27,977 bases of DNA from a virus, in IMG/VR virus record IMGVR_UViG_3300035703_000358, positions 1 to 27,977 of that record; one strand, given 5' to 3'. The notes under the pieces were generated by a model. That model was not told the origin of the DNA and made no database searches. It worked only from the letters and a program-made list of their open reading frames with translations. A program made the position numbers and the translations under genes. Below, piece after piece: positions 1-27,888 of this stretch. Position 1 is the stretch's first letter. Every line of letters starts with the position of its first letter.

Positions 1-213
1 ATGAGATGCTTAAGTTGTGATAAAAACCTTACAGACTTTGAGGCTACTAGGAAGTCTGCCTTTACAGATGAGTTTATAGACCTCTGTAACCATTGCTTTG
101 CTAGTGTTAGCGATGACTTACAGACTATTGAGAGGGCTGATCTAGCACATGAGGATGACTACTCAGATGAGATTGATTCTCAATTGGACTTCGATATTGA
201 CAGGGACTATTAA
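1..213 (+). CDS. Small Cys4 (zinc-finger-like) phage protein
   Basis: A 70-residue acidic protein with two CxxC pairs, C3/C6 and C29/C32, which look like one zinc-binding knuckle; the second half is rich in Asp and Glu. An ATG sits exactly at the window edge, so the true start could lie further left and completeness cannot be judged. It precedes the replication operon on the same strand. A TTGACA promoter element begins within its last codons. Function is not recognised; small Cys4 proteins in this position of T7-like phages are usually hypothetical. That it is a real gene is supported by the compact context and the clean stop just before the promoter. Confidence 0.6.
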   Translation: MRCLSCDKNLTDFEATRKSAFTDEFIDLCNHCFASVSDDLQTIERADLAHEDDYSDEIDSQLDFDIDRDY

Positions 214-225
214 GTATGATACAAT
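197..225 (+). promoter_or_regulatory. Sigma70-type promoter with extended -10
   Basis: The sequence shows a perfect TTGACA at 197-202, a 17-nt spacer, and TACAAT at 220-225 preceded by TG at 217-218 (extended -10, TGnTACAAT). The start of transcription should be near 232. It would feed the small gene at 339 and the primase-helicase through a leader of about 100 nt that is very AT-rich. The element overlaps the 3' end of the first gene. Activity is inferred from consensus only. Confidence 0.75.
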
Positions 226-338
226 CTCTATATAGACTTATAAAGAATCTTTCAAGTATCTATTACTTATTACTTAAAAGATAATTATTAATAATCATAT
301 CTTTAATACTCTTAATAACTATTAAGGAACTCTTTAGT
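226..338 (+). other. AT-rich intergenic leader with inverted repeats
   Basis: No gene is seen here. The stretch is strongly AT-rich. It contains a perfect 12-nt palindrome, ATTATTAATAAT, at 284-295, flanked by inverted arms AAAGAT (277-282) and ATCTTT (299-304), plus a small AAAGA-A-TCTTT inverted repeat at 242-252. It directly follows a strong promoter and precedes the replication genes. It could be an untranslated leader with secondary structure or an AT-rich unwinding region for replication initiation as at the T7 primary origin; the sequence does not decide between these. Confidence 0.45.
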
Positions 339-509
339 ATGAATGACGATGAACAACGATTTATTGCTGAGATGCAAGAGGAAGCACACTACTGGTTCAC
401 TGTCTCTGCTGTGGCTCGGCTGTCCTTGGATCAAGGGCTTGCCAAGGTGCTAGCAGATGTGATACAATATATGCACAAGGAAAAACAGAAAGGAGTAACC
501 TGTGGCTGA
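339..509 (+). CDS. Hypothetical 56-aa protein upstream of primase-helicase
   Basis: Reads from ATG at 339 to TGA at 507-509, giving 56 residues (begins MNDDEQRFIAEMQ, ends KEKQKGVTCG). It is mostly helical, acidic at the N-terminus and without a signal peptide or membrane segment. Its 3' end overlaps the GTG start of the primase-helicase by 8 nt, which suggests translational coupling. A promoter (439-468) is embedded in it. The preceding bases contain AAGGA (323-327) as a possible ribosome site. Function is not recognised. It is accepted as a gene because it fills the gap in a compact operon. Confidence 0.55.
   Translation: MNDDEQRFIAEMQEEAHYWFTVSAVARLSLDQGLAKVLADVIQYMHKEKQKGVTCG
439..468 (+). 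promoter_or_regulatory. Sigma70-type promoter before primase-helicase
   Basis: TTGCCA at 439-444 (5 of 6 to consensus), an 18-nt spacer, and TACAAT at 463-468 preceded by TG (460-461). The -10 ends 34 nt before the GTG start of the primase-helicase, matching the spacing seen for other promoters in this window. It lies inside the small upstream ORF. Confidence 0.55.
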
Positions 510-2088
510 CCAATTGAAGGCTCACCAGCCCTGTCCCGATTGTGGGAGCAGTGATGCCCTGACCTACTACTCATGGGGTAGTCGGTGCTTTAGTTGTGGG
601 AAAGCAAGGCGTAACGCCAGTGCAGAGGAACCAGTACAGAAACTAACCAAGGTGAACACTAAAGTGACTAATGTGCATGATCTGTCCTATGAGGAGGTGA
701 TTGACCGTAACCTGACTAGGGCTACCTGTCAGACCTACGGTATCGGTAACAAGAATGGCTACTACTATTTCCCGTACTACAACGAGGAAGAGACGCTGGT
801 GGCTTTCAAGCGCAGGAACATGGAAGACAAGCGATTCAGCATCGAAGGTGACTGGAACAAGGGTGGCCTGTTCGGGCAGCAGTTGTTTAACAAGGGAGAT
901 AAGTATGTCACGATTACTGAGGGTGAGTTCGATGCTGCGGCAGCGTATCAGATGCTGGGTTCTAAGTACCCTGTGGTTTCTGTTAGAAATGGCGCGGGCA
1001 ATGCAGTCCAGGATGTTAAGGCGAATTACGAATGGCTCGACTCCTTCGAGAACATCGTCATTTGTTTTGATAACGATGATGCGGGCAGAGGAGCTGCTAA
1101 TGCGGTGGCTGAAGTACTTGGAACTAAAGCCAAGATATTTAAAGGACGCACAGGTATTAAAGATGCCTGTGAGTACGTCCAAGAGAACAAGGAAAAAGAG
1201 TTCATAGACCTGTGGTGGAGGTCTGAGCGGTACACACCTGATGGAATCATCGATGGTGCTGGATTGTGGGATTTAGTGAACCAACCAGTGGAAAAGTCTG
1301 ATGTAAACTACCCTTTCAGTGGGTTAAATGACCTAACCTACGGTATCAGGTCTGGAGAGATGGTCACTATCACGGCTGGATCAGGGCTTGGTAAGTCTCA
1401 GTTCTTACGCGAGATTGTGTATCACATCATCAATAACACTCAGGACAACATTGGCCTGCTGTTCTTGGAAGAGTCTGTCAAGCGGACAGCCAAGAGCCTG
1501 ATGAGTCTACACGCTAACAAGCCATTGCATCTACCTGACATCGAGGTTACGAATGAAGAACTACGAGACTCTTTTGACGCTACACTGGGTACTGGTCGTG
1601 TGTATCTTTTTGATCACTTTGGCTCTACTGCCATTGACAACATTATCACACGAGTACGTTTCATGGCTAAGGCTCTTGATTGCAAGTATATTTTTCTTGA
1701 TCACGTTAGTATCGTGGTATCTGCACAAGACAATGGTGACGAGCGAAAAGCCTTAGACGAGATTATGACCAAGCTGCGGATGGTGGTTCAAGAGACTGGC
1801 ATTGCTCTGTTCTGTGTCTCACATCTCAAACGGCCTGACGGTAAAGGACACGAAGAAGGTGCAAGTACCTCTCTGTCTGCTCTACGAGGCTCAGGATCGA
1901 TTGGTCAGTTGTCTGACATGGTGCTTGGTCTGGAACGTAACGGACAGGCTGAGGATCTCAAGGAGAGGCATACAACCAGGGTTCGGGTATTGAAGAACCG
2001 ATTCAGTGGACTGACTGGCCCTGCCTGTGGTCTTTACTATGATCGGGTTACTGGGCGCATGAGCGAGACTGTGATGGAGGAACTATGA
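502..2088 (+). CDS. T7-like DNA primase/helicase
   Basis: A 528-residue bifunctional replication protein of the T7 gp4 type (T7: 566 aa). It unwinds the fork as a hexamer and synthesises primers. Visible parts: N-terminal zinc-binding domain with C11, C14, C29 and C32; TOPRIM primase core with ITEGEFDAA (E140, D144) and FDNDDAG (D190, D192); linker; RecA-like helicase with Walker A GSGLGKSQ (293-300), a Walker B-type IFLDH (D400), the CVSHLKRP motif (H441) and a late Arg (RVLKNRFSG, about R500) typical of the arginine finger region. The start is GTG at 502, supported by AGGAG at 491-495. The stop overlaps the next gene by ATGA. All motifs needed for both activities look intact. Confidence 0.95.
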   Translation: MADQLKAHQPCPDCGSSDALTYYSWGSRCFSCGKARRNASAEEPVQKLTKVNTKVTNVHDLSYEEVIDRNLTRATCQTYGIGNKNGYYYFPYYNEEETLVAFKRRNMEDKRFSIEGDWNKGGLFGQQLFNKGDKYVTITEGEFDAAAAYQMLGSKYPVVSVRNGAGNAVQDVKANYEWLDSFENIVICFDNDDAGRGAANAVAEVLGTKAKIFKGRTGIKDACEYVQENKEKEFIDLWWRSERYTPDGIIDGAGLWDLVNQPVEKSDVNYPFSGLNDLTYGIRSGEMVTITAGSGLGKSQFLREIVYHIINNTQDNIGLLFLEESVKRTAKSLMSLHANKPLHLPDIEVTNEELRDSFDATLGTGRVYLFDHFGSTAIDNIITRVRFMAKALDCKYIFLDHVSIVVSAQDNGDERKALDEIMTKLRMVVQETGIALFCVSHLKRPDGKGHEEGASTSLSALRGSGSIGQLSDMVLGLERNGQAEDLKERHTTRVRVLKNRFSGLTGPACGLYYDRVTGRMSETVMEEL

Positions 2089-2534
2089 CTGACCTACGCA
2101 AAGCAGCGGAGCAGGCGTTGGAGGCTTTGGAAACGCTATGGGACATCTTGGATGACATTGACACCGCATCTGACATGGCTAAGGAAAACAATGCTTGGTA
2201 CAGGAAGCGTGTCGAAGCATTACAAAAGAAGCGATGGGACACAACGATTACAACAGACGGTTACAAGTTAAAAGGCGGCCCAGTAGAAGCACTACGCCAA
2301 GCACTAGCGCAGGAAGAAAAGCCGCCAGTTAAGTCTTACTGCGGTGGTAAACCTAACTATTGCACACCTGTCGATGCCGTAAACATATCGCAAGAACGTG
2401 TTGATGAAACGGCAAAACGTAAGCGTGAATGGGTTGGGCTGACTGAAGTTGACATTTACGAAGCTATGGATTTCGATGATGAGTTTGACTTTGCCAAAGC
2501 CATCGAAGCCAAACTAAAGGAGAAGAACACATGA
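2085..2534 (+). CDS. Hypothetical phage protein, 149 aa
   Basis: The N-terminal third (MTDLRKAAEQALEALETLWD) is an amphipathic helix of a kind common in phage early proteins. The middle has an ALRQAL repeat-like helix, and the C-terminus is charged (AKAIEAKLKEKN). No catalytic motif or membrane segment is visible. It is coupled by ATGA overlaps both to the primase-helicase upstream and to the FkbM-type gene downstream, so it belongs to the replication operon. Function is not recognised; the two helical ends suggest a small accessory or protein-protein interaction role, but that is a guess. Confidence 0.75.
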   Translation: MTDLRKAAEQALEALETLWDILDDIDTASDMAKENNAWYRKRVEALQKKRWDTTITTDGYKLKGGPVEALRQALAQEEKPPVKSYCGGKPNYCTPVDAVNISQERVDETAKRKREWVGLTEVDIYEAMDFDDEFDFAKAIEAKLKEKNT

Positions 2535-3160
2535 GTCATCCTGATCAGGCATTCGGAGATAAGACTTATTCACAGTTTGGGGAAGACTTAATCTTACTAA
2601 ATGTGTTTCAGAAGTTAGGTATCGAGAACGGTAAATACTTCGATGTTGGGGCGCACCATCCTTACAACATCAGCAACACTGCCCTGCTCTATGAGCGTGG
2701 CTGGAGAGGAGTCTGTGTCGAGGCTAACCCTAACCATATCAAGGCTTTTGAGTATCACAGACCGATAGACACGATCCTGAATGTAGGGGTTGGTGTTGTG
2801 GCTGGAGAGTTAGAGTTCTTTATGATCGATGACTTCTCTGGTAGGAACAGTTTTGATTACGATACTATCTTGGAGTTTATCAAGAACCATCCTGAGTTTA
2901 AGATAAACACTGTAAAACAGGTAAAGGTTTTAACTCTTGATAGTCTCTTTGATATGTATGGTGTCCCTGATTTATTGTGTATCGACATAGAAGGGCTGGA
3001 CTACCCAGTGCTGCAGACGATGTTAGGTAGACCGAAGGTCATCTGTGTTGAGAACCACGGTAAGGTAGAGTACTTCGACAACTTGCTAAAGCTGCTAAAG
3101 TATGATAAAATATTTAACACAATAGGAAACGGAATCTACCTACATGAGAGTTGCAATTGA
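2531..3160 (+). CDS. FkbM-family SAM-dependent methyltransferase
   Basis: A 209-residue protein with hallmarks of the FkbM family: N-terminal QFGEDLIL, SAM-binding motif I YFDVGAHHP (36-44), the acidic residue ending strand 2 in VEANP (E64), a late LTLDSL segment, and the family signature IDIEGLDYPVL (151-161) followed by VENHG. Known relatives O-methylate sugars, polyketides or other small acceptors. The gene sits between primase and polymerase, overlapping the polymerase start by 17 nt, although it is not a replication gene. It is probably an auxiliary gene acquired from bacteria that modifies a host or virion glycan; the acceptor cannot be read from the sequence. The family call is firm and the substrate unknown. 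Confidence 0.88.
   Translation: MSHPDQAFGDKTYSQFGEDLILLNVFQKLGIENGKYFDVGAHHPYNISNTALLYERGWRGVCVEANPNHIKAFEYHRPIDTILNVGVGVVAGELEFFMIDDFSGRNSFDYDTILEFIKNHPEFKINTVKQVKVLTLDSLFDMYGVPDLLCIDIEGLDYPVLQTMLGRPKVICVENHGKVEYFDNLLKLLKYDKIFNTIGNGIYLHESCN
3083..3111 (+). promoter_or_regulatory. Candidate sigma70-type promoter before DNA polymerase
   Basis: TTGCTA at 3083-3088 (4 of 6), a 17-nt spacer, and TAAAAT at 3106-3111 preceded by TG at 3103-3104. The -10 ends 33 nt before the polymerase ATG. It lies in the 3' end of the FkbM-type gene. The hexamers are weaker than in the other sites, but the extended -10 and the shared spacing support it. Confidence 0.45.
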
Positions 3161-4784
3161 CATCGAGACTAACCTAAAGCATAACACTATCTGGTGTTGC
3201 TCTACCTATAATTTAGATACTAAAGAAGTAAAGACATGGACAAACGCACAAGACTTCAGCAAGTTTATTCAGCAAGCCAAACTGATAATCGCCCACAACG
3301 GAATATCATTCGACTACCCCGTCCTAAACAGACTATGGAAGACTTCGATCAGACTGAGCCAAGTACGGGACACACTGGTTATGTCAAGACTCTCAAGCCC
3401 GTCAAGAGAGGGTGGACACAGTCTAGCCAATCTCGCAAAGCTAGTAAACCGAACCAAGAAGGAATACGAAGATTTCGAGGGCGGCCTGACAGATAAGATG
3501 ATTGAGTACTGTCAAGAAGACGTGACAATCTGTGGTGAGTTGTACCTGTATCTGACGCAAGAGCTGCGTGGATTCTCTGAGCAGTCCATCGAGTTAGAGC
3601 ATAAGGTGCAGGCTATCGTTGCTAAGCAGGAAAAGCATGGCTTTAAACTTGATACTGTGAAAGCCCAGTGCCTGCTTGGTAAATGGAAGCGTAGGCTGTC
3701 TGACATTGAAGAGGAGTTGCAAACCATTTTCCCACCCATTGTCACTCAAAGGTTTAGTGAGAAGACAGGCAAGCAGTTGAAGGATGATGTTGAAGTATTT
3801 AATCCTGGTTCACGCCAGCAGATAGCAAAGCGATTGATTGAGAAGGGCTGGAAACCTACTAAGCACACTGAGAAAGGAGCTGTAATTGTTGACGAATCAG
3901 TTCTTGACGGAGTTGATATTCCAGAGGCAAAGAGAATCGCAGAGTACTTACTCATTCAGAAACGGGTGGCTCAGGTTGAATCATGGCTTGAGTTTGTATC
4001 TGACGAGCGCAGGGTTCACGGTAAGGTCATCACCAACGGGGCAGTCACAGGACGTATGACACACCACAGCCCTAACATGGCTCAGGTTCCTAGCAGCAGT
4101 AGTCCTTGGGGTCATGAGTGTAGAGATTGCTGGACAGTGGATGATGGTAATGTCTTAGTAGGTGCAGACGCTAGTTCTCTTGAGTTACGGATGTTGGCAC
4201 ACTATATGAAGGATGAAAGCTATGCAAAAGAAATCGTTGAAGGCGATGTACACACGAAAAACCAACTCGCTGCTGGTTTGGAAACAAGGGCACAAGCCAA
4301 AACATTTATTTATGCCCTACTATATGGTGCAGGGCCTGCCAAAATCGGGAAGATTGTTGGTGGTTCGGCAAAGGATGGTCAGGAACTCATCAGTAATTTT
4401 CTTCGCAACACTCCTGCTCTCAAGAGTCTTAGAGAAAAGGTTGAACGCCTATCAGAACAAGGGACGCTACCAGGTCTGGACGGTAGGAAACTACAAGTGC
4501 GTTCCGCACACGCAGCACTTAACACACTCCTGCAGAGTGCTGGTGCAATAGTGATGAAGCAAGGTTTGGTTATACTAAACAGTAAGATTCAGCAGCAGAA
4601 ACTTAATGCCCACTTCGTAGCTAATGTTCATGACGAGTGGCAGATCGAATGCAGTCAGGAAGATGCAGATGCAGTAGGTAAGTTAGCAGTAAGCAGTATC
4701 AAGGAAGCAGGAGAAGTCTTAGGTCTTCGCTGCCCACTAGACGGTGAATACAAGAAAGGAACAACATGGGCACAAACCCACTAG
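3144..4784 (+). CDS. T7-like family A DNA polymerase with 3'-5' exonuclease
   Basis: A 546-residue replicative polymerase. Exonuclease motifs: ExoI DIET (D6, E8), ExoII HNGISFDYPVL (D57), ExoIII YCQEDVTIC (Y122, D126). Polymerase motifs: TGRMTHHSPNMAQVP, motif A DASSLELR (D342), motif B KTFIYALLYGAG (K386, Y390), motif C VHDE (H497, D498). The Tyr at the T7 Y526 position is retained. T7 polymerase is about 704 aa; the shortfall falls partly in the thumb region, so the thioredoxin-binding insertion is probably missing. It overlaps the methyltransferase upstream and a small ORF downstream. All catalytic residues are present, so it should be an active proofreading enzyme. Confidence 0.95.
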   Translation: MRVAIDIETNLKHNTIWCCSTYNLDTKEVKTWTNAQDFSKFIQQAKLIIAHNGISFDYPVLNRLWKTSIRLSQVRDTLVMSRLSSPSREGGHSLANLAKLVNRTKKEYEDFEGGLTDKMIEYCQEDVTICGELYLYLTQELRGFSEQSIELEHKVQAIVAKQEKHGFKLDTVKAQCLLGKWKRRLSDIEEELQTIFPPIVTQRFSEKTGKQLKDDVEVFNPGSRQQIAKRLIEKGWKPTKHTEKGAVIVDESVLDGVDIPEAKRIAEYLLIQKRVAQVESWLEFVSDERRVHGKVITNGAVTGRMTHHSPNMAQVPSSSSPWGHECRDCWTVDDGNVLVGADASSLELRMLAHYMKDESYAKEIVEGDVHTKNQLAAGLETRAQAKTFIYALLYGAGPAKIGKIVGGSAKDGQELISNFLRNTPALKSLREKVERLSEQGTLPGLDGRKLQVRSAHAALNTLLQSAGAIVMKQGLVILNSKIQQQKLNAHFVANVHDEWQIECSQEDADAVGKLAVSSIKEAGEVLGLRCPLDGEYKKGTTWAQTH

Positions 4785-4975
4785 ACTTTGAAGATGGTTT
4801 TTGGAAAGACATGGAAGATGTAGTCTTTATCAACATAAAGAAGGACAAGACTATCAATATGCAGACATCGGTTCAGAATATGGAGGAGCTAAAGAGTATC
4901 TTCAGCACTGCCTATATGATGGCGATGTTTCAGGATATGAAATCTGATCCAAAGGATGTTGACAATTTCCACTGA
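4766..4975 (+). CDS. Hypothetical 69-aa protein
   Basis: A small acidic protein beginning MGTNPLDFEDGFWKDMEDVV, with a methionine-rich helix near the end. It overlaps the polymerase stop by 19 nt and has AAAGGA six bases before the ATG, a good ribosome site. Its last codons contain the -35 hexamer of the next promoter. No motif is recognised. The start and context support translation; the function is unknown. Confidence 0.6.
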   Translation: MGTNPLDFEDGFWKDMEDVVFINIKKDKTINMQTSVQNMEELKSIFSTAYMMAMFQDMKSDPKDVDNFH

Positions 4976-4986
4976 TGTGCTATAAT
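4959..4986 (+). promoter_or_regulatory. Consensus sigma70 promoter before SSB
   Basis: Perfect TTGACA (4959-4964), a 16-nt spacer and perfect TATAAT (4981-4986), with TG at 4978-4979 giving an extended -10. The -10 ends 31 nt before the SSB start codon and is followed by AAGGAG at 5005-5010. This is one of the two strongest promoters in the window and would give the SSB and downstream genes high expression from host polymerase. Confidence 0.85.
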
Positions 4987-5016
4987 ATTACTTGTAACTT
5001 AGAAAAGGAGATGTAA

Positions 5017-5427
5017 ATGGAATTGAAACCACTTAAAGTACAGGCAGAGATTATGTGGGCTTTCTTGGATACGCCTAACCAGCTATCAGGTAAGTACCAG
5101 GTAGACCTCTGTAACCTTACCAAAAGTGCTGTAGGTGCTTTATCGAGCATGGGTGTGAATGTTCTTACCAAAGAAGGCCAGCCTGAGAAGGGACAGTACA
5201 TTACAGCTAAGTCTGTAAACTATCCTATCAAGACTGAGGACAGCAACGGTAATGCTATCACAGCTAAGGTTGGTAACGGGTCTAAAGGGATTGCACTGCT
5301 CAAGCCTTATGAGTATTCGTACAAAGGTAAGAAGGGTGTAGGAATTGGGATTAACAAGCTAATCGTCACAGATCTAGTAGTCTACGAAGGATCTGATGCC
5401 GTTGAAACAGCCGATGATGTTCTCTAA
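5017..5427 (+). CDS. Probable single-stranded DNA-binding protein (gp2.5-like)
   Basis: A 136-residue protein. The segment MWAFLDTPNQLSGKYQVDLCNL and the later NGSKGIALLKPYEYSYKGKKGVG resemble the beta-barrel SSB-like proteins found beside the polymerase in T7-like marine and freshwater phages. The C-terminus is acidic and ends in hydrophobic residues (SDAVETADDVL), the hallmark tail that SSBs use to contact partner proteins. It is preceded by a consensus promoter and AAGGAG, consistent with an abundant protein. It lies between polymerase and exonuclease, as SSB genes often do. The assignment rests on remembered family resemblance, context and tail rather than on a catalytic motif. Confidence 0.7.
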   Translation: MELKPLKVQAEIMWAFLDTPNQLSGKYQVDLCNLTKSAVGALSSMGVNVLTKEGQPEKGQYITAKSVNYPIKTEDSNGNAITAKVGNGSKGIALLKPYEYSYKGKKGVGIGINKLIVTDLVVYEGSDAVETADDVL

Positions 5428-5440
5428 GAAAGGAAAGAAG

Positions 5441-5674
5441 ATGACAGCAAAGAAAGCAGTATCACCTACACCTAAGTTTAATTTTAAGGTGTCACCAGTA
5501 GAGTCTGTGTTTGAGGTAGAAGTTGATGGTGTTCCTAGTTCACTATGGGGGGCAGATTGTTTTAAGTTCTCTGTGTCCTCTGATGGTTCTGTCACTATCA
5601 ATGACAACGAGTTCTCCAGTAAGAAGCAGGCAGCACAGGCACTCGAAGCTATGGCTACGTTTCTGAAGAAGTAA
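5441..5674 (+). CDS. Hypothetical 77-aa protein
   Basis: The chosen ATG at 5441 follows AAGGAAAG at a suitable distance. An upstream in-frame ATG at 5396 would overlap the SSB by 32 nt and lacks a better ribosome site. The N-terminus is basic (MTAKKAVSPTPKFNFKV), the middle looks like beta strands (VFEVEVDG, FKFSVSSDGSVTIND), and the end is helical (SKKQAAQALEAMATFLKK). The stop overlaps the exonuclease start (TAATG). No known domain is recognised. Its position between SSB and exonuclease suggests a small replication accessory factor, but nothing in the residues proves it. Confidence 0.65.
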   Translation: MTAKKAVSPTPKFNFKVSPVESVFEVEVDGVPSSLWGADCFKFSVSSDGSVTINDNEFSSKKQAAQALEAMATFLKK

Positions 5675-6378
5675 TGTTAGCACTCATCGATGCCGACATT
5701 GTTTGCTACCGAATTGGATTCGCTTCCGAGGAAGTTAGCGACAAGATTTGCTTGGCACGATGTGCTGAGTTCATGGAAGAGCTGGTGATGAAACCCTATG
5801 TAGGAGACTACCAAGGGTATCTCACTGGCAAGCAGAACTATAGGACTGAGATAGCAGTAACCGCACCTTACAAGGGAAACCGTACCGCAGCTAAACCCAA
5901 ACACTATGAGCTGATTCGGGAGTACCTTGAGAAGGCGTGGGGTTGTATCGTAGTAGAAGGACAAGAGGCTGATGACGCTATCGGTATCAAGGCTTATGAG
6001 ATTGGAGACATTGAGGAATATATCGTCATGTCTATCGATAAGGATCTTGATATGATTCGTGGTTGGCACTATAACTTTATTAAGGATAAGAAGTATCTAA
6101 TCGATGACCAACAAGCTATCAGACATTTCTATACGCAGCTACTGACTGGCGATAGGGTTGATAACATTGTTGGGATTCGAGGTGTAGGTCCAAAGAAAGC
6201 TGAGAAGATTCTTCAGGACTGTCTCACTGAGGCCGATATGTACAAAGCAGTATTGGAAGCATACGACAACGATGATAAACGAGTACTGGAGAATGGACAA
6301 TTGTTATGGATACGAAGAAACGAAAACCAGATTTGGTCACCTGCCCTTTGCAGTACATCCAATGGGTTGACGCAGTAG
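5674..6378 (+). CDS. 5'-3' exonuclease (FEN/T7 gp6-like)
   Basis: A 234-residue nuclease of the flap-endonuclease superfamily that removes RNA primers and degrades host DNA in T7-like phages. Metal-binding and catalytic residues are all visible: LIDADIV (D6, D8), APYKGNR (K68, R70), EGQEADDA (E98, D100, D101), SIDKDLDM (D122, D124) and TGDRVDNI (D160, D163), followed by the helix-hairpin-helix-like GIRGVGPKKAEKIL. Its last 73 nt are shared with the next ORF in another frame, so the last roughly 24 residues are probably dispensable. The start overlaps the upstream stop. Function is clear from motif order. Confidence 0.92.
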   Translation: MLALIDADIVCYRIGFASEEVSDKICLARCAEFMEELVMKPYVGDYQGYLTGKQNYRTEIAVTAPYKGNRTAAKPKHYELIREYLEKAWGCIVVEGQEADDAIGIKAYEIGDIEEYIVMSIDKDLDMIRGWHYNFIKDKKYLIDDQQAIRHFYTQLLTGDRVDNIVGIRGVGPKKAEKILQDCLTEADMYKAVLEAYDNDDKRVLENGQLLWIRRNENQIWSPALCSTSNGLTQ

Positions 6379-6662
6379 CAGATGTGGAATGGCAAGAAGA
6401 TGTTAAAGCGGAAGTTCACCTCTGTCACAGCATTGGTTGGATTATTGACGAAACGGATGACGCATTATGCATTGCTAATACAGTCTCTATGGACAACAGC
6501 AATGCCCGTATGCATCTACCTAAGCAGTGGATTAAAGTAAGAAAGGACATAACACTTGAAACCAAGCAGCGCCAAGTCCAAAGGAAGACACCTGCAAAAG
6601 TGGGTAAGAGATCTAATACTAGCCAAGTTCAATCTGGAGGCAGACGATGTTCGCTCAGTTAG
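6306..6662 (+). CDS. Conserved hypothetical phage protein, 118 aa
   Basis: The central part (WVDAVADVEW, VKAEVHLCHSIGWIIDETDDALCIANTVSM, ARMHLPKQWIKVRK) resembles a small hypothetical family that recurs in podoviruses, where it usually ends soon after the IPxxxIKKI-like segment. Here the frame continues for about 35 more residues of low-complexity, basic sequence that overlaps the following nuclease by 107 nt. The 5' end overlaps the exonuclease by 73 nt and has no strong ribosome site close to the ATG. The tail may be an extension after loss of an original stop. Function is unknown; being a real gene is fairly likely because the core resembles a family. Confidence 0.65.
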   Translation: MDTKKRKPDLVTCPLQYIQWVDAVADVEWQEDVKAEVHLCHSIGWIIDETDDALCIANTVSMDNSNARMHLPKQWIKVRKDITLETKQRQVQRKTPAKVGKRSNTSQVQSGGRRCSLS

Positions 6663-6897
6663 TATGGGCGTCTCCGGGGAGGATCTGTTACTCAGTCCAG
6701 CAGCCAGACGGGTCTTGCCAATTAGTTTGGAATGCAAGTCCAGAGCAGCTATCTCAGTATACGGTTATTACGAACAAGCCAGAGGAAACGCAGGAGGCTA
6801 CGAACCTGTTTGCATCATCAAACAAAACAGAGATAAGCCCCTGGCTGTGGTAGACGCAGAGTACTTTTTTGAACTATTAAGGAGCAAGCATGAGTAA
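6556..6897 (+). CDS. PD-(D/E)XK-type nuclease / resolvase-like
   Basis: A 113-residue protein starting with TTG at 6556, supported by AGAAAGGA eight bases upstream and by the family-like N-terminus KPSSAKSKGRHLQKWVRD. Basic residues are followed by GVSGEDLLLSP (E66, D67 as metal ligands) and PISLECKSR (E-x-K, the PD-(D/E)XK signature), then YGYYEQARGNAGGYEPV and a C-terminal strand IIKQNRDKPLAVVD. In T7-like phages an endonuclease at this position resolves branched DNA or helps degrade host DNA. It shares 107 nt with the upstream ORF and 8 nt with the downstream one. The fold assignment is moderately firm; branch specificity is inferred. Confidence 0.78.
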   Translation: MKPSSAKSKGRHLQKWVRDLILAKFNLEADDVRSVSMGVSGEDLLLSPAARRVLPISLECKSRAAISVYGYYEQARGNAGGYEPVCIIKQNRDKPLAVVDAEYFFELLRSKHE

Positions 6898-7195
6898 AGT
6901 TTATCGATTCATTTATGATTCTGAGTTTGACACTGAAGAGCCTACGACATACCCAGAGGCTACGACTGTTAAGGCACGTCACTACTTTGCAGACTTCACT
7001 GCATGGCCTACGATTCTCCACGAGTTCTGTAAGTTCTTGGAGGCTACTGGTTACAACGGTGTGATGGAGCGTGTTGTTCTAAAAGATCCTTATGAGATGG
7101 AGAGGGATGGTTTATTTGAGACTATTGGACCTAATCAGTACATTGCAACTGTACATGAAGAGCCTTTAGACAACGAAGACAAGGACGCTAACTGA
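6890..7195 (+). CDS. Hypothetical 101-aa protein
   Basis: An acidic, mixed alpha/beta small protein (begins MSKVYRFIYDSEFDTEEP) with no recognisable motif, signal peptide or membrane helix. The ATG is preceded by AAGGAG at 6879-6884 and overlaps the nuclease stop by 8 nt. Its own stop overlaps the metallophosphoesterase start (TGATG type). Context and ribosome site make it a real gene; the function is unknown. Confidence 0.7.
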   Translation: MSKVYRFIYDSEFDTEEPTTYPEATTVKARHYFADFTAWPTILHEFCKFLEATGYNGVMERVVLKDPYEMERDGLFETIGPNQYIATVHEEPLDNEDKDAN

Positions 7196-7962
7196 TGACT
7201 GTTCATGCCATAATCCCCGACTGCCAAGTCAAGGACGGTGTTGATCTTAGTTATCTGACATGGGTAGGCAAGTATCTTGTAGAGAAGAAACCTGATGTGA
7301 TTGTACAGATTGGGGACTTTGCAGATATGCCTAGCCTGTCTAGCTACGATGTTGGTAAGAAGTCCTTTGAAGGCAGACGGTACAAGACTGATATCGAAGT
7401 TACTAACAAAGCTATGGAGATGTTGTTAGCACCCATTAAGGAACATAATGAACGAGCAAAGAGAAACAAGGAACGACAGTACAAACCAAGAATGGTCCTC
7501 ACTCTTGGAAATCATGAAGAAAGAATTTCCAGAGCTGTCGAAGGAGACCCTAAACTGGATGGAACTATTAGTCTCAGCGACCTTAACTACGAACATCATG
7601 GTTGGGAAGTTGTACCGTTCCTTGAACCTGTTGTTATTGATGGGGTTGTGTACGCTCATTATTTTACTTCTGGCGTTATGGGGCGTGCTGTAGCCTCTGC
7701 TGCGGCTCTCTTAGCTAAGAAGCATATGTCCTCAGTGATGGGCCATGTGCAGAACAGACAGATAGCCTACTCTAATCGTGCTGATGGTACGCAGATCACT
7801 GGCCTCTTTAGTGGCTGCTGCTACCTGCATGACGAGGACTATCTAGGTAGTCAGGGTAACAAGTACTGGCGTGGTATATGGCTGTTGCATGAGGTTACTA
7901 ACGGCAGCTTCGATGAGATGCCTGTGTCTCTTAACTATTTAAGGAAGAAGTATGAGCATTGA
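7195..7962 (+). CDS. Calcineurin-like metallophosphoesterase
   Basis: A 255-residue protein with ordered metallophosphoesterase motifs: IPDCQVK (D9, with Q11 where most families have His), VQIGDFAD (D41), LTLGNHEER (N106, H107, E108), AHYF (H155) and a late GHVQ (H184). The fold binds two metals and cleaves phosphomono- or diesters, including nucleic acid ends, cyclic nucleotides and phosphorylated proteins. The Asp-x-Gln variant of motif I is odd but recurs in phage members. It is coupled to neighbours by short overlaps. Being within a replication operon suggests action on nucleic acids or nucleotides, but the substrate cannot be read. It is a cytoplasmic protein with no signal peptide. Confidence 0.85.
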   Translation: MTVHAIIPDCQVKDGVDLSYLTWVGKYLVEKKPDVIVQIGDFADMPSLSSYDVGKKSFEGRRYKTDIEVTNKAMEMLLAPIKEHNERAKRNKERQYKPRMVLTLGNHEERISRAVEGDPKLDGTISLSDLNYEHHGWEVVPFLEPVVIDGVVYAHYFTSGVMGRAVASAAALLAKKHMSSVMGHVQNRQIAYSNRADGTQITGLFSGCCYLHDEDYLGSQGNKYWRGIWLLHEVTNGSFDEMPVSLNYLRKKYEH

Positions 7963-8281
7963 TAACGCAACACCTAATGACTGGTATGTGGCCTACCATC
8001 GTAATTCTAAATTTGATGATAAAACACTAGGTGACTACATCAAGTCTAAGCAGATTGGAGGCGATCATTACAAGTCTGACATCGAGCCTTGGGATGTGTT
8101 CCTAGACTGGAGGTTAGACCCTTGGGCCTGCAATGTGATTAAGTATGTGCAGCGTCATCGCAAGAAAGCAGGTAAGCAGGATCTTGAGAAGGCGAAGCAT
8201 TACCTAGAGTTTATGATCGACAACTACGATAAGATTGGTGAGAAGTATTATGATTGGAACAGTAAAGATAAACTGGAGTGA
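7952..8281 (+). CDS. DUF3310 protein (T7 gp1.7-like C-terminal domain)
   Basis: A 109-residue protein. The stretch IGGDHYKSDIEPWDVF, CNVIKYVQRHRKKAGKQDLEKAKHYLEFMI matches the DUF3310 pattern (a HY near the N-terminus, then NxxKYxxRxxxK and DLxKAxxYL). In T7 the same domain makes up the C-terminal part of gp1.7, a nucleotide kinase, so a role in dNTP supply is plausible; no separate kinase P-loop is visible here. It overlaps the metallophosphoesterase by 11 nt and the next gene by about 32 nt. The ATG at 7952 follows AAGGAAG. Confidence 0.8.
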   Translation: MSIDNATPNDWYVAYHRNSKFDDKTLGDYIKSKQIGGDHYKSDIEPWDVFLDWRLDPWACNVIKYVQRHRKKAGKQDLEKAKHYLEFMIDNYDKIGEKYYDWNSKDKLE

Positions 8282-9239
8282 CGCTGACAGGGACTACAAG
8301 AAAGGGCAGAACCTAATCCGTAAAGGCGATTGGGCCAACGGGTTTAAACTGCACGAGCTTCGGTCCCTGCCTGATGCTTTCTGGAATCCTAATGCTAAGT
8401 TCCCAGGAGTTAGGAATAACTTCGATAGGGCTGCTGTCTGGATGCCGGGACAGAACATCAAGGGACGCAGTGTAATCATCTGGTCAGAGGCTGGCTGGGG
8501 AGATATGCTTCAGTTCTCTCGATTCATCCCCATGATCAAGGAGCTTACCAACGATGTCTTCTGTGTCTACCCTGACGAGATAGCACCACTGCTTCGCAGG
8601 ATGGATACTAGGCTGGAGTTTAGCAAGGCTCCCCGTGACTGCCCTCCTTCGTCCTTCAGGATCAAGATGATGTCTATGCCTTACCTCCTGATGGAGCATG
8701 GCCTGTTACCTTCAGAGCCTGCTGATCGGTGGTTTGGTGCAGAGGGTCTGTACCGTAACCCTGCTATAGTGGCTCCTAAGCGTAGCAAGCCATTGGTAGG
8801 TATCTTTTATAGCACCGACAACAAGTCATGGAATATGGCAGCAAAGCAGATCCCTAAAGATGTAGTAGATGAGTTTGTCACTAGACATCCTGAGTATGAC
8901 TTTGTGTCTCTGCAGGTAGGAGAAGGGTTCCTAGACAGCTTTAAGTGGATTGAGACAGCAGATAAAATCCAGACACTCGATGCCGTTATATCGGTGGATT
9001 CTGCTATCGCCCACTGTGCTGCCAGTGTTGGTGTGAGGACTCTGAACCTAGTAGGTGACGAGAACATAGCCTGCTGGAGGTGGTTCCCTGTCGGTGAGAA
9101 GACCTACTGGTACGACAGTATGACCACTATCTGGTGGGATCATTATGCTGATTGGGATACAGGGTTGGAGAAGGCTATCGAGCACCTGCCAAAAGTAGTT
9201 AGTAAAAAGCGTAGCAAACCTAAGAAAAGTGTGGTATAA
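8250..9239 (+). CDS. GT9-like glycosyltransferase (heptosyltransferase/TPR-associated type)
   Basis: A protein of 329 residues from the ATG at 8250; TTG/GTG codons at 8235/8238 are alternatives. Key segments: GRSVIIWSEAGWGDMLQFSRF (about 72-92) and TLDAVISVDSAIAHCAASVG (about 242-261), then CWRWFPVGEKTYWYDSM. These resemble the GT-B-fold transferases related to ADP-heptose:LPS heptosyltransferases and the TPR-protein sugar transferases, where the aligned DxSxAH segment binds the nucleotide sugar. N-terminal TPR repeats are not seen. A basic tail (KKRSKPKKS) ends the protein. It is an auxiliary gene in an otherwise replication-focused operon and may modify a glycan. The donor and acceptor are unknown. 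Confidence 0.75.
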   Translation: MIGTVKINWSDADRDYKKGQNLIRKGDWANGFKLHELRSLPDAFWNPNAKFPGVRNNFDRAAVWMPGQNIKGRSVIIWSEAGWGDMLQFSRFIPMIKELTNDVFCVYPDEIAPLLRRMDTRLEFSKAPRDCPPSSFRIKMMSMPYLLMEHGLLPSEPADRWFGAEGLYRNPAIVAPKRSKPLVGIFYSTDNKSWNMAAKQIPKDVVDEFVTRHPEYDFVSLQVGEGFLDSFKWIETADKIQTLDAVISVDSAIAHCAASVGVRTLNLVGDENIACWRWFPVGEKTYWYDSMTTIWWDHYADWDTGLEKAIEHLPKVVSKKRSKPKKSVV

Positions 9240-9240
9240 T
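9212..9240 (+). promoter_or_regulatory. Extended -10 promoter before RNR unit
   Basis: Perfect TATAAT at 9235-9240 with TG at 9232-9233 (TGGTATAAT). The -35 region at the 17-nt position is weak (TAGCAA, 3 of 6), which extended -10 promoters tolerate. It lies at the end of the glycosyltransferase gene. The predicted transcription start (about 9247) falls downstream of the ATG at 9243 but 29 nt before the in-frame ATG at 9276, which affects start choice for the next gene. Confidence 0.55.
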
Positions 9241-9242
9241 AT

Positions 9243-9410
9243 ATGGCCTTAACATTAGAAGAGATAAAGGAGCGCATGAAGAGGTGGGATGAGTTAACAC
9301 TCATAGAGGAGTTGTCAATCCGTTCAGAAGATATAGTTGAAAGGTTTGATGATATTATTGAAGACAATGCAGACAGATTAGAGTCGCTAGTTAATTGGGA
9401 AAATATATAA
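9243..9410 (+). CDS. Small conserved phage protein upstream of RNR
   Basis: 55 residues from the ATG at 9243 (MALTLEEIKERMKRWDEL), or 44 from the ATG at 9276, which has AAAGGAG at 9266-9272 just three bases before it. A strong -10 element ends at 9240, so a transcript from that promoter would lack the first ATG; an upstream transcript would allow it. The protein is acidic and helical (LTLIEELSIRSEDIVERFDD) and resembles small proteins found beside polymerase or RNR genes in marine podoviruses. The stop overlaps the RNR start (TAATG). Function is unknown. Confidence 0.65.
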   Translation: MALTLEEIKERMKRWDELTLIEELSIRSEDIVERFDDIIEDNADRLESLVNWENI

Positions 9411-11299
9411 TGGATTACTATCAACAGTTTATTGCTAAGAGCCGTTACAGTCGGTTCCTACCTGAGAAGAATCGCCGTGAACACTGGGAAGAATCAGTAG
9501 ACCGATACTTCACCTTCATGTTTAATCATTTACAAGAGAAGTACAAGTTTTCTCCTAACGAGGAGCTACGAGCAGAGCTTACCAGTGCTGTCAAGAACCT
9601 GGATGTTATGCCATCCATGAGGGCTATCATGACCGCTGGCAAGGCGCTAGACCGTGACAACACTGCTGGCTATAACTGCAGCTACCTACCTATCGATGAC
9701 CCTAAAGCCTTTGACGAGGCTATGTACATCCTACTCTGTGGTACTGGTGTAGGCTTTTCTGTGGAGCATAAATATGTCGATCAATTGCCTGAAGTCCCGG
9801 ATCAGTTGTTTGATTCTCAGACTACTATTTCGGTTGCGGATTCAAAAGAAGGGTGGGCCAAAGCACTACGCCAGCTCATCGCTTTACTATACTCTGGGGA
9901 AGTTGCAAAATACGATCTTAATAGAATTCGACCTGCAGGAGCCAGACTCAAAACTTTTGGAGGACGTGCCTCTGGTCCAGGACCTTTGGATGAGCTTTTT
10001 AAGTTCACTATCGCCAAGTTCAGGGGAGCAGTGGGTAGAAAACTTACATCAATCGAGTGTCATGATCTTCTCTGTAAAATCGGGGAAGTTGTTGTTGTCG
10101 GTGGAGTACGAAGATCTGCAATGATTTCTTTGTCGGACCTCGAGGATGACCGTATGCGGTCTTGTAAATCAGGAAATTGGTGGGAACAAAATGGACACAG
10201 AGCACTCGCTAACAACTCAGCAGCTTACACTTCTAAACCAGATATTGGTCAGTTTCTCGCAGAATGGACAAGTCTTTACAACAGTCATTCTGGAGAGCGA
10301 GGGATCTTCTCACGAGAGGCAAGTAAGAGTCAAGCTGCAAAGAACGGTAGGCGTGATCAGAATTATGACTTCGGAACTAATCCCTGTTCAGAAATCATAC
10401 TTCGACCCTACCAGTTCTGTAACCTCACAGAAGTCGTTGTACGGGCCGAGGATACCGTTGCAGACTTGGCTAAGAAAGTACGCATCGCCACAATCTTAGG
10501 CACGTTCCAGAGCACTATGACGCACTTCCCTTACCTGCGTAAGGTGTGGCAGAAGAACACTGAGGATGAGCGTCTCTTGGGTGTGTCGTTAACTGGTATC
10601 TTAGATAATCCTTGGATGGGGAGGGTATGTGAAAGCACTACGCAATCTCTTGAATACTTACGGGATGTCTCCGTTAATACCAATAATGAGTTTGCAGCAC
10701 AGTTGGGAATTCCTGTGTCTGCTGCGATCACTTGTGTTAAACCTTCTGGCACTGTGTCTCAACTTGTTAATAGCGCCTCTGGTATTCATACTCGACATAG
10801 TCAGTATTATATTCGCCGTGTTCGTGGTGATAAGAAAGACCCGCTAACTCAGTTCTTAACAGACTCAGGTGTGCCTACAGAGGACTGTGTGATGAGACCA
10901 GACAACACAGCAGTCTTCTCATTCCCAGTCAAAGCACCAGAGTCTTCTCGTACTCGTGATGATCTGACAGCTATGCAGCACCTAGACCTGTGGTTGATGT
11001 ATCAGCGTCACTGGTGTGAGCATAAGCCTTCTGTGACTATCTCTGTCAAGGAAGACGAGTGGATGGACGTAGGAGCTTGGGTGTGGAGGAACTTCGATGA
11101 GCTTAGTGGTATCTCATTCCTGCCTTGGGATGGAGGCTCTTATCGTCAAGCACCATACGAGGAGTGTACTAAAGAGCAGTACGAGGAGCTTCTATCTAAG
11201 ATGCCTACGGCTATTGTGTGGGAGAATCTGAAGGAAGAAGATGACAACGTAGAGGGAGCGCAGACCCTAGCCTGCGTAGCGGGGCATTGTGAAATATGA
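9410..11299 (+). CDS. nrdJ: Class II (cobalamin-dependent) ribonucleoside-triphosphate reductase
   Basis: A protein of 629 residues from the ATG at 9410; a TTG at 9395 in frame is less likely. It reduces ribonucleotides to deoxyribonucleotides using adenosylcobalamin. Matches to the monomeric Lactobacillus-type enzyme: YNCSYLP (C90), the radical site NPCSE (N324, C326, E328), FCN with C337 exactly 11 residues after C326 as in C408/C419, GGVRRSA, KPSGTVSQL, GIHTRHSQYYIRRVRG, and a C-terminal Cys pair (C622, C627) spaced like C731/C736. It is shorter than the 739-residue bacterial enzyme, as usual in phages. No separate NrdB gene is needed. It implies the host supplies or imports B12. Confidence 0.93.
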   Translation: MDYYQQFIAKSRYSRFLPEKNRREHWEESVDRYFTFMFNHLQEKYKFSPNEELRAELTSAVKNLDVMPSMRAIMTAGKALDRDNTAGYNCSYLPIDDPKAFDEAMYILLCGTGVGFSVEHKYVDQLPEVPDQLFDSQTTISVADSKEGWAKALRQLIALLYSGEVAKYDLNRIRPAGARLKTFGGRASGPGPLDELFKFTIAKFRGAVGRKLTSIECHDLLCKIGEVVVVGGVRRSAMISLSDLEDDRMRSCKSGNWWEQNGHRALANNSAAYTSKPDIGQFLAEWTSLYNSHSGERGIFSREASKSQAAKNGRRDQNYDFGTNPCSEIILRPYQFCNLTEVVVRAEDTVADLAKKVRIATILGTFQSTMTHFPYLRKVWQKNTEDERLLGVSLTGILDNPWMGRVCESTTQSLEYLRDVSVNTNNEFAAQLGIPVSAAITCVKPSGTVSQLVNSASGIHTRHSQYYIRRVRGDKKDPLTQFLTDSGVPTEDCVMRPDNTAVFSFPVKAPESSRTRDDLTAMQHLDLWLMYQRHWCEHKPSVTISVKEDEWMDVGAWVWRNFDELSGISFLPWDGGSYRQAPYEECTKEQYEELLSKMPTAIVWENLKEEDDNVEGAQTLACVAGHCEI

Positions 11300-11424
11300 T
11301 GATCGAACTAAACTTTATCTGTGGTATTATGTGTGGAGCAGAGTATGTACAAGACCCAGAGGAGGGAACAAACTACCTAGTAGTTGATGTCTTATTCCTC
11401 AGAATCCTCTTCAGTTGGGATTAA
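11296..11424 (+). CDS. Small conserved phage protein, 42 aa
   Basis: The reading frame from the ATG at 11296 (overlapping the RNR stop, ATGA) to TAA at 11422-11424 gives MMIELNFICGIMCGAEYV, then DPEEGTNYLVVDVLFLRILF and a short SWD end. The hydrophobic VVDVLFLRILF end and the FICGI start recall tiny proteins common at the end of early operons in marine podoviruses; the function is unknown. Its last 33 nt overlap the 3' end of the lysozyme gene on the other strand, an antisense overlap where the two gene modules meet. It was recovered by direct reading because it is too short for usual ORF cutoffs. Confidence 0.6.
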   Translation: MMIELNFICGIMCGAEYVQDPEEGTNYLVVDVLFLRILFSWD

Positions 11425-11892
11425 GTACATCTCTCGCTCATGCTTCCTGCGCTTAACTAGGCCAGGAAGTTCTTTACCGCCTGCCTTGGTCCACGCAAGG
11501 AAAGCATCAGCAGCAGCTTCATACTCGCCTCTGTTGTGCTTCATCCTTATCGTGGATCTTTGCAGGTTTCCCAGCCCCACATTGAAGCTAAAGCTAACCA
11601 AGGCATCGAACCTACCTTGGGTAAGTCCTTGAGGGCATAGTCTAAGAACACCTCGCTCGAATGTAGCCAAGTCTTCTGCGAGGATTCTATCCACTTCAGC
11701 CATTGACAAAACTCTATCCCACCCATCAGGGATACTAAGTCCTTTGCGTTCATTGAATGGTGTCCTTATGTGGTTAGGATCTATGACGTGCCCAACACCC
11801 ACGGTCCACAGCAGGGCTGGACAGCGGTAAGGTTTTGTCCTTACTCCTTCATCCTTCTTAATACCTTCTATGCAAGCCTTGCTTACCTTCAC
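11392..11892 (-). CDS. Endolysin, GH24 lysozyme
   Basis: Cleaves peptidoglycan glycan chains at lysis. From GTG at 11892 (GTGA overlap with the holin stop) the protein has 166 residues; a GTG at 11904 would add four residues but lacks a better ribosome site. Catalytic region: KKDEGVRTKPYRCPALLWTVGVGH, with E15, C24 and T30 spaced exactly as E11, D20 and T26 of T4 lysozyme. The Asp is replaced by Cys, a variant known from some phage GH24 enzymes and from the active T4 D20C mutant. There is no N-terminal signal or SAR anchor, so export depends on the adjacent holin. A conserved helical domain (FNVGLGNLQRST) follows. Confidence 0.92.
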   Translation of the reverse strand: MKVSKACIEGIKKDEGVRTKPYRCPALLWTVGVGHVIDPNHIRTPFNERKGLSIPDGWDRVLSMAEVDRILAEDLATFERGVLRLCPQGLTQGRFDALVSFSFNVGLGNLQRSTIRMKHNRGEYEAAADAFLAWTKAGGKELPGLVKRRKHEREMYLIPTEEDSEE

Positions 11893-12392
11893 TTCTTGCC
11901 CCACTGACGAGAACCAAACCAGAAGGCAATGATTCCAGACAGCAAGGCCATCTCATCCTCAGAGAAGATGACATCAGTGGCTGCGATAAACTGCTCTACA
12001 TCCATGCTACCTAGACCACCACGCAGCAGGAAGTAGGTCAGTGCTATGTTAATCATCACTAACTCTAGGACAAAGATAAAGGTAACTGTTGGGCGTACTA
12101 TCCCATTCAGGTTAACCACCCAGTTAGAGGCACGAGCCATGATAGCCTTGTCGTGGTCTAAAGCGGCGCTCTGGCGGTCTGCATCAGTCTGGAGGGCAAT
12201 CTGGTCAGTCCTGATCTCCTCGACCTTCTGCTGGGCTAAGAAGCCCCTCTCTGCCAGGGCTAGTTCACGCTCAGTCTGCATCTGGGCAAGCTTTAACTCC
12301 TGAGCCTTGTCAGCCCTGTCTTGGAAGAAGCTAAGTACCTGGGGTAGGCCAGAGGCTAGGAAACCAACTGCAGAGGAAATAAGGGATAACAT
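11889..12392 (-). CDS. Holin, 3-TM (GTA_holin_3TM-like)
   Basis: A 167-residue membrane protein directly upstream of the lysozyme with a GTGA overlap. Hydrophobic segments: about 1-23 (MLSLISSAVGFLASGLPQVL), about 97-120 (RPTVTFIFVLELVMINIALTYF) and about 150-160 (LLSGIIAFWFG), separated by a long charged coiled-coil-like helix (about 27-85). The pattern of three membrane segments and an end like FWFGSRQWGKK fits the holin family first named for gene transfer agents. It forms the membrane lesion that releases the endolysin. AAGGAG sits six bases before the ATG. The order holin then lysozyme fits a lysis cassette. Confidence 0.8.
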   Translation of the reverse strand: MLSLISSAVGFLASGLPQVLSFFQDRADKAQELKLAQMQTERELALAERGFLAQQKVEEIRTDQIALQTDADRQSAALDHDKAIMARASNWVVNLNGIVRPTVTFIFVLELVMINIALTYFLLRGGLGSMDVEQFIAATDVIFSEDEMALLSGIIAFWFGSRQWGKK

Positions 12393-17776: not shown

Positions 17777-18310
17777 TTATTCTCCTTGTTTCAAATAGGC
17801 TAATAAGACTTCTAATTCTTCTACAGACGCATAACCTTTAATACGGTTTGCTTTCCAAGAAATAATCTGAACATTGTCTTTTGTATAGCCTTTGGTTGAG
17901 TCAATACGATCTATACTTGGGCTAGTCTCTCTAAAACCAGCCCCATTCCATTCTAATTTAAGACCAAAGATAGGACAGCATCCATCCTTTGGAAATAAGT
18001 TAAATAAGTCTTGCTTGGTAAGTGTATGCTCTCTATTCTTTTCTTTAGCTCGTGCTCTTGAGGCATTTAATAAACCCTGAAGCCTAAAGTCCATATCGTC
18101 AGTATGTTTAATTCTGTATTGTTTTCCATACTCTTGTATTTCTTGTCTCTTCTCGACCCTTCTTTTCTGCTGCCTTAAGTTGTCACAACTTCTGCAAACA
18201 AACTGTAGACCATCCTTAGCTGCTAAGTTTTTAGTAAAGGAAAACAGAGGTAAAAAAGATTCACACTTTTTACAGTATTTAGTCTTTTCCACAACTGCTA
18301 AGTTACTCAT
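17777..18310 (-). CDS. HNH endonuclease, likely free-standing homing type
   Basis: 177 residues: an N-terminal zinc ribbon (C13, C16, C39, C42), a basic helical linker (RQQKRRVEKRQEI), then an HNH nuclease core with CCPIFGLKLEW, SPSIDRIDSTKGYTKDNVQI and SWKANRIK. The D-R-I-D...N...N-R-I-K order is typical of this phage homing family. It is inserted between two tail genes: its ATG overlaps the upstream stop (ATGA) and its end carries the AAGGAG used by the downstream fiber. Its end (YLKQGE) and the upstream protein's end (YIKQGKQA) share the DNA stretch AAACAAGGA, a short direct repeat. It is AT-richer than its neighbours. Confidence 0.88.
   Translation of the reverse strand: MSNLAVVEKTKYCKKCESFLPLFSFTKNLAAKDGLQFVCRSCDNLRQQKRRVEKRQEIQEYGKQYRIKHTDDMDFRLQGLLNASRARAKEKNREHTLTKQDLFNLFPKDGCCPIFGLKLEWNGAGFRETSPSIDRIDSTKGYTKDNVQIISWKANRIKGYASVEELEVLLAYLKQGE
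17782..17787 (-). promoter_or_regulatory. AAGGAG ribosome-binding site for the fiber gene
   Basis: On the minus strand AAGGAG lies within the last codons of the HNH gene (CAA GGA GAA TAA). Seven bases follow before ATT at 17774, a near-ideal spacing. The alternative ATA at 17780 is only one base away and AAA is not a start, so this site singles out ATT. Confidence 0.55.
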
Positions 18311-26970: not shown

Positions 26971-27888
26971 TTAGGCAGGAACAACAAAGCCAACTGCAGC
27001 ATCGGTACGGATAGTCTTAACACCGTACAGAGTATCAGCAGTTAACAGATCAGCAAGCCACTCTTGCTTGTACTGAGTCTGTGAGCGAACACCAAGTTGC
27101 TCAACCAACGTGAATGCATCACGATGGAACAGACCAGCCAAACGAGCAGCACCAGACTCCAGAGAAGGAGCATTGGAACTGATATAGACTTCGATACCGT
27201 AGAGGTTACCAACGCGACCATTACGGATCGTGTTAGCTGCACCAGTCTCACCCGTGAAGGCTTGCTCGGTGTAACGTGCAGTACCCATCAAATCGTTACG
27301 CAGAACAGGCGGGATGACAAAGGAACGACCATCCATCGGTACATCAGCATCGTCAAGGATCTGAATTCCCTTACGGAAGCCAGCGTCATTGAATGCAGAA
27401 CCAACAGAGCCGTTGTATGCAACAGCCGTGGTGGAGCTAAACTCATAGACACCAGAGTTCTGGTAGGAAGAACCGTTACCGTTACCGATAGACTTGAAGA
27501 GTGTCCAGATGTCTGAATCGGTCTGTACGCCAAGAGCGTAGCCAGCGTCATCCGTGTAGAAACGGCGTAACGAGGCAAGGGCCTGTACAGAGACGATATC
27601 TTCGATCAAACGGCTGTACTCGAAGTGCTTATCGATGTTGATTACTACCTCGTCTTCAGTCGCAGCAATCAGGGTAACCTGAGAAGAAGCAACTTTAGCA
27701 GAAGCAGTACCACGGGTGGGTTTCGGGACGTGAACAGTGTCACCCTTCTTACCACGGAAGTTCATCTTGTTGATGACGTTAGCGAGAACCAGGTTCTTCT
27801 TGTATGCAGCAACGATCTCGTCACTCCAAATCTCAGGAATAAACTTGGCGGCTGTTGTTACGGTTACGTTATTAGTACCCAAAGGCAT
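26971..27888 (-). CDS. Major capsid protein
   Basis: 305 residues, preceded by AGGAG and followed by a terminator, as expected for the most abundant virion protein. N-terminus MPLGTNNVTVTTAAKFIPEI, then SDEIVAAYKKNLVLANVINK and GDTVHVPKPTRG, VVINIDKHFEYSRLIEDIVS, later IPPVLRNDLMGTARYTEQAF and NLYGIEVYISSNAPSL. These resemble the HK97-fold coat proteins of aquatic podoviruses. T7 gp10 is about 345 residues, so the length fits. It assembles the icosahedral shell; a scaffold gene probably precedes it beyond the window edge. No insertion domain is visible. Confidence 0.85.
   Translation of the reverse strand: MPLGTNNVTVTTAAKFIPEIWSDEIVAAYKKNLVLANVINKMNFRGKKGDTVHVPKPTRGTASAKVASSQVTLIAATEDEVVINIDKHFEYSRLIEDIVSVQALASLRRFYTDDAGYALGVQTDSDIWTLFKSIGNGNGSSYQNSGVYEFSSTTAVAYNGSVGSAFNDAGFRKGIQILDDADVPMDGRSFVIPPVLRNDLMGTARYTEQAFTGETGAANTIRNGRVGNLYGIEVYISSNAPSLESGAARLAGLFHRDAFTLVEQLGVRSQTQYKQEWLADLLTADTLYGVKTIRTDAAVGFVVPA

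Follow-up and report, generated by a model that had tools for sequence, protein, structure and literature searches.

Putative host sigma-70 promoters in the replication module of a convergent freshwater podovirus

Convergent gene organisation of the record and its relatives

The window analysed here is an entire virus record (G000) of 27,977 bases and 46% G+C, itself a fragment of the genome of a freshwater phage. Its genes are organised convergently, with + strand genes at 1–11,299 forming the replication half and - strand genes running from 11,392 up to a capsid gene at 27,888. The replication half encodes a primase/helicase (502–2088, +; Toprim and DnaB_C domains in Pfam, 53% identical to the primase of HTVC115P), an FkbM methyltransferase, a family A DNA polymerase (3144–4784, +; PF00476, 2.7e-49), a ssDNA-binding protein (5017–5427, +; its family profile matches the annotated HTVC115P ssDNA-binding protein at 2.2e-18), an exonuclease and a ribonucleotide reductase of the adenosylcobalamin (class II) type (9410–11299, +; PF21995, the RNR-II insertion domain, and PF02867). 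The methyltransferase (2531–3160) and a weak match to glycosyltransferase family 9 (8235–9239) lie amid these replication genes. The major capsid protein (26971–27888, -; phrog_267, 7e-45) adjoins the cut end of the record, beyond which the stretch with terminase and portal is lacking; a close relative of 37.7 kb whose polymerase is 97% identical (G002) has the terminase, the portal and a weak scaffold match.

As relatives we used 80 loci drawn with the polymerase; the near-complete relatives are 37–40 kb long and have G+C contents of 41–45%. In many relatives the slot ahead of the polymerase is occupied by other sequence. When genome contigs were searched for a possible host, the polymerase met distant matches alone (33–56%, in unrelated bins), and a search of the window against Rfam gave no match above the gathering score.

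Extended -10 sites of the replication half

A preliminary description of this DNA had listed the extended -10 motif TGnTAnAAT at 217, 460, 3103, 4978 and 9232, and all five matches are present on the + strand. The accompanying -35 boxes are TTGACA at N17 (217), TTGACA at N16 (4978), TTGCCA at N18 (460), TTGCTA at N17 (3103; 4/6 matches) and TAGCAA at N17 (9232; 3/6); three sites have at least 5/6 matches, 217 and 4978 both reading TTGACA. That the sites sit inside the end of the preceding gene is a fair description of 460 and 3103; 9232 overlaps the stop codon, and at 217 and 4978 the -35 lies inside the gene and the -10 just past the stop.

Such matches could arise by chance or as by-products of coding in AT-rich gene ends. 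The loose motif alone occurs nine times in the whole window against 4.1 expected, and a loose consensus scan of 1–12000 stayed near shuffle level (22 versus 18) with no overall enrichment, so the strong sites are what counts. Within 1–11400, the motif occurs five times on the + strand against 1.09 expected (2 of 300 shuffles reach five) and not at all on the - strand. Once the -35 is included the excess becomes large, with four + strand sites against 0.15 expected at a threshold of at least 4/6 and three against 0.02 at a threshold of at least 5/6, each count reached in 0 of 300 shuffles. In a control, the reversed TGnTATAAT motif was unrelated to downstream starts. The five sites are real and above chance. 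We also scanned the window independently with a weight matrix for E. coli promoters, assuming E. coli-like sigma preferences for the host; 4978, 217, 460 and 3103 are among its five top sites.

To score conservation, we counted sites scoring at least 14 ahead of each gene in non-redundant relatives and compared the counts with random stretches. Such a site precedes the ssDNA-binding protein gene in 31 of 46 relatives (67%; random 3.5%), the polymerase in 12 of 39 (random 2.2%), the 55-aa ORF at 9243 in 4 of 22 (random 4.0%), the primase in 1 of 39 (random 3.2%) and the exonuclease gene in 0 of 34 (random 1.8%). By these counts, 4978 is a feature of the family, 3103 is partly so and 460 is local.

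The predicted promoter ahead of the ssDNA-binding protein, TTGACA-N16-(TGC)TATAAT (4959–4986, +), is the best site of the window (score 18.4) and is retained in relatives despite differing flanks. Together with an early promoter kept across the group (described below), this argues further against chance or coding by-products, a reading that we consider very unlikely. A site that would fit it is the one before the DNA polymerase, TTGCTA-N17-(TGA)TAAAAT (3083–3111, +; weight-matrix score 14.7), which lies in the methyltransferase gene and there encodes a conserved peptide, Y-D-K-I. It is retained only in relatives where the same methyltransferase gene adjoins upstream, and because it sits in the coding sequence of this co-travelling gene, its retention does not count as independent evidence. 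The site before the primase/helicase, TTGCCA-N18-(TGA)TACAAT (439–468, +; 15.1), lies in an ORF at 339–509 and is retained only in the close relatives L003, L004, L006 and L007; judged by these comparisons, it is lineage-specific.

At 9232–9240 (+) a conserved TGGTATAAT with a weak -35 ends 2 nt before ATG 9243, the conserved start of a conserved 55-aa ORF (9243–9410, +). TGnTATAAT is retained at this position in L004, L007, L008, L011, L013, L015, L019, L020 and L021, in some of them with other upstream sequence. We rejected the start at 9276 named in the preliminary description, as it is unconserved (TTA stands there in G003 and G009, CTT in G007). Leaderless expression of the 55-aa ORF was likewise rejected, ATG 9243 being only 2 nt past the -10 and thus ahead of the expected transcription start.

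The near-constant distance from -10 to start codon proposed earlier holds for the starts at 502, 3144 and 5017, with 33, 32 and 30 nt between, and fails for 9276, where the start is unconserved. Across relatives, the best site ahead of the ssDNA-binding protein lies about 29–66 nt from the start; with the spacing of one and the same gene running so widely, a near-constant distance is not a design rule, and we rejected a regular 31–36 nt design. Leader lengths vary, the 460 site is no more frequent in relatives than background, one start out of four is unconserved, and at 217 the first start follows only at 339.

The remaining member of the top five is a - strand site absent from the preliminary description, TTGACA-N17-TATAAT without TGn (18481–18509, -10 at 18486; score 18.2), inside a structural gene (18307–20160). 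It is also found in G002, G003, G007 and G009 and may be retained by coding constraint. Elsewhere in the relatives, sigma-70 consensus promoters recur ahead of the ssDNA-binding protein gene as well as at the left, early position. The late promoters of L008, L012, L075, L083, L086 and L088 have a common spacer sequence beyond the sigma-70 boxes (TTGACAAATCTTAAAAAGTATGCTATAAT). A further promoter follows the portal gene in G002 (L082 3398–3450; matching places in G007 and G009) and is itself followed by a hairpin-like repeat, CTGTTGTAgaaaTACAACACAG, and AGGAG.

The early promoter, its AT-rich leader and polymerase starts in relatives

The leftmost site, TTGACA-N17-(TGA)TACAAT (197–225, +), is a predicted early promoter with a perfect -35 and a weight-matrix score of 17.9, against a mean of 14.5 for the top score of shuffles. 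We aligned 16 sequences of the window's group, hand-picked from pattern scans upstream of like genes; all have TTGAC-N17-TGnTAnnnT, then CTA..TAG-type letters, then an AT-rich stretch. Since the sequences were chosen by pattern, their common boxes are partly a matter of choice, which is not true of their common place or of the letters after the -10. In the window these letters form a palindrome, CTATATAG (228–235), near the predicted transcription start, and CTA..TAG-type letters stand at that place in most relatives; we regard the palindrome as a candidate operator.

Downstream lies an AT-rich leader (226–338, +; 81% A+T), a candidate replication origin or unwinding element, and no 100 bp of the window are richer in A+T than 209–308 (83%). 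The AT-richest block likewise comes after the early promoter in G002, G003, G009 and G012, and the second AT-richest does so in G007. Gene direction flips near this place. An RNA fold of the early leader was no better than shuffles (z -0.51). Promoter, palindrome and AT-richest leader together suggest an origin-like arrangement. The primary origin of T7 likewise consists of promoters followed by an AT-rich stretch, a parallel that serves as a lead and not as a test.

In relatives, a different geometry precedes the polymerase. In seven different upstream contexts (L007, L015–L020, L041, L045, L048, L049, L053–L056, L058, L060 and L069), a -10-like hexamer ends 6–7 nt short of the polymerase ATG. 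Among 33 non-redundant polymerase upstream regions, five have the hexamer at 6 nt and two at 7 nt, versus 23 scattered across the remaining 68 distances, and the upstream regions of the ssDNA-binding protein have none at 6–7 nt. This geometry suggests a leaderless mRNA, whose transcript would start at or beside the polymerase ATG. Translational coupling is a rival explanation, consistent with L015–L019, where the primase stop overlaps the -10-like box. The arrangement is absent from the window. The joint proposal that the promoter at 197–225, the palindrome and the 81% A+T leader form an origin fired by host RNA polymerase (not by a phage enzyme, as in T7), and that several sister lineages make their DNA polymerase from leaderless mRNA, is one that we put forward as an unlikely possibility.

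Which RNA polymerase reads the sites, and comparison with known phages

A search for a single-subunit RNA polymerase gene with PF00940 found none in 22 records, namely the window and 21 relatives, eight of which are 37–40 kb long; as the window is a fragment, the absence rests on the relatives. The screen was run in two parts, and in the second a positive control, HTVC119P, a phage with an RNA polymerase gene, matched PF00940 at 1.9e-112. The hallmark of Autographiviridae, a phage-encoded RNA polymerase, was thus not found in these 22 records. Sigma-70 region 4 (Sigma70_r4) was found in 0 of 10 records and matched in 14 of 14 control genomes. These two null results and the recurrence of sigma-70 consensus promoters in relatives support the earlier suggestion that the phage relies on host RNA polymerase. 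Its characterisation as T7-like is apt for the DNA polymerase type and for the primase/helicase; the convergent layout matches cobaviruses, HTVC115P and LUZ24/tf rather than T7.

It is therefore very probable, as far as the sequences can tell, that the sites represent sigma-70 promoters of the host type, most of them with an extended -10, from which the rightward replication module is transcribed in a convergent podovirus lacking its own RNA polymerase. Under this model, the promoter at 217 would start the early replication transcript and the one at 4978 would re-initiate transcription ahead of the ssDNA-binding protein, while 460 and 3103 would provide additional, lineage-specific starts within the module, ahead of primase and polymerase. 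The opposite module may be served in relatives by comparable promoters close to the record end and upstream of the capsid genes. We infer that the promoters fire during infection, and the same applies to the holoenzyme used. That a polymerase encoded or modified by the phage (a divergent RNA polymerase, a sigma factor or an appropriator) reads the sites instead is in our view highly improbable: the common spacer of the relatives' late promoters, the CTA..TAG palindrome near the early promoter's predicted start and the small early proteins (most of those tested match no family), among which a regulator could hide, would fit it, but neither PF00940 nor Sigma70_r4 was found and the boxes are plain sigma-70 consensus at the usual 16–18 nt spacing.

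Host sigma-70 promoters in convergent podoviruses have precedents. The cobavirus Celeribacter phage P12053L (Zobellviridae, Cobavirinae, which also include roseophage SIO1) is convergent and has TTGACA-N17-TACAAT in the corresponding place, directly after its DNA polymerase gene, between polymerase and next gene; the product of that next gene, gp24, scores E=0.011 against the ssDNA-binding protein profile, which does not establish it as such a protein. The window's primase and polymerase are 47% and 38% identical to those of P12053L, and its reductase is 27% identical to the cobalamin-type ribonucleotide reductase of that phage. Cobaviruses have a cobalamin-dependent reductase and no RNA polymerase of their own (PMC6918029). 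In contrast, the structural proteins of the window that were tested, its capsid included, and the terminase, portal and capsid of G002 had no tblastn match in P12053L at E<=1e-3, so we did not file the window as a cobavirus.

HTVC115P, an HTVC103P-type pelagiphage, is the closest isolate match for the primase (53%), is convergent, has no PF00940 match and shares homologues of the ssDNA-binding protein, the capsid and, in the case of G002, the portal. HTVC103P-types are marked by related replication genes and HMO-2011-type structural genes; here the replication genes are 46–53% identical to those of HTVC115P and capsid and portal about 23–24%, and the G002 terminase is unmatched. Unlike the window's group, HTVC115P has a genome of 54.8 kb with about 33% G+C, an alpha/beta ribonucleotide reductase and a ssDNA-binding protein gene that precedes the primase. 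HTVC103P-type metagenomic relatives reach a G+C content of 44% ('group IV'; PMC8528129).

By their descriptions, LUZ24-like phages (LUZ24, PaP3 and tf) are also alike, their convergent units carrying multiple host sigma-70 promoters; tf has seven putative host promoters in its left half and three in its right half, which match promoters mapped in LUZ24 (PMC3517423). In Skadi-1 (Polarivirus skadi), an HTVC010P-type pelagiphage that lacks an RNA polymerase, sigma-70 promoters lie close to genes for replication and DNA manipulation (PMC10504331), although the family of this phage is said to have no core genes in common with HTVC103P-types.

The best reading of the window is a cobavirus- or HTVC103P-like podovirus that depends for transcription on the sigma-70 RNA polymerase of its host, as do P12053L, LUZ24/tf and Skadi-1. 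This transcription strategy is already known, and the window is a new member, adding a freshwater group to the podoviruses that combine a T7-like replication set with host RNA polymerase. The analysis also provides a conserved promoter map that is open to testing. If the AT-rich leader is an origin, it would show how replication begins in such phages when the phage RNA polymerase on which T7 depends is absent.
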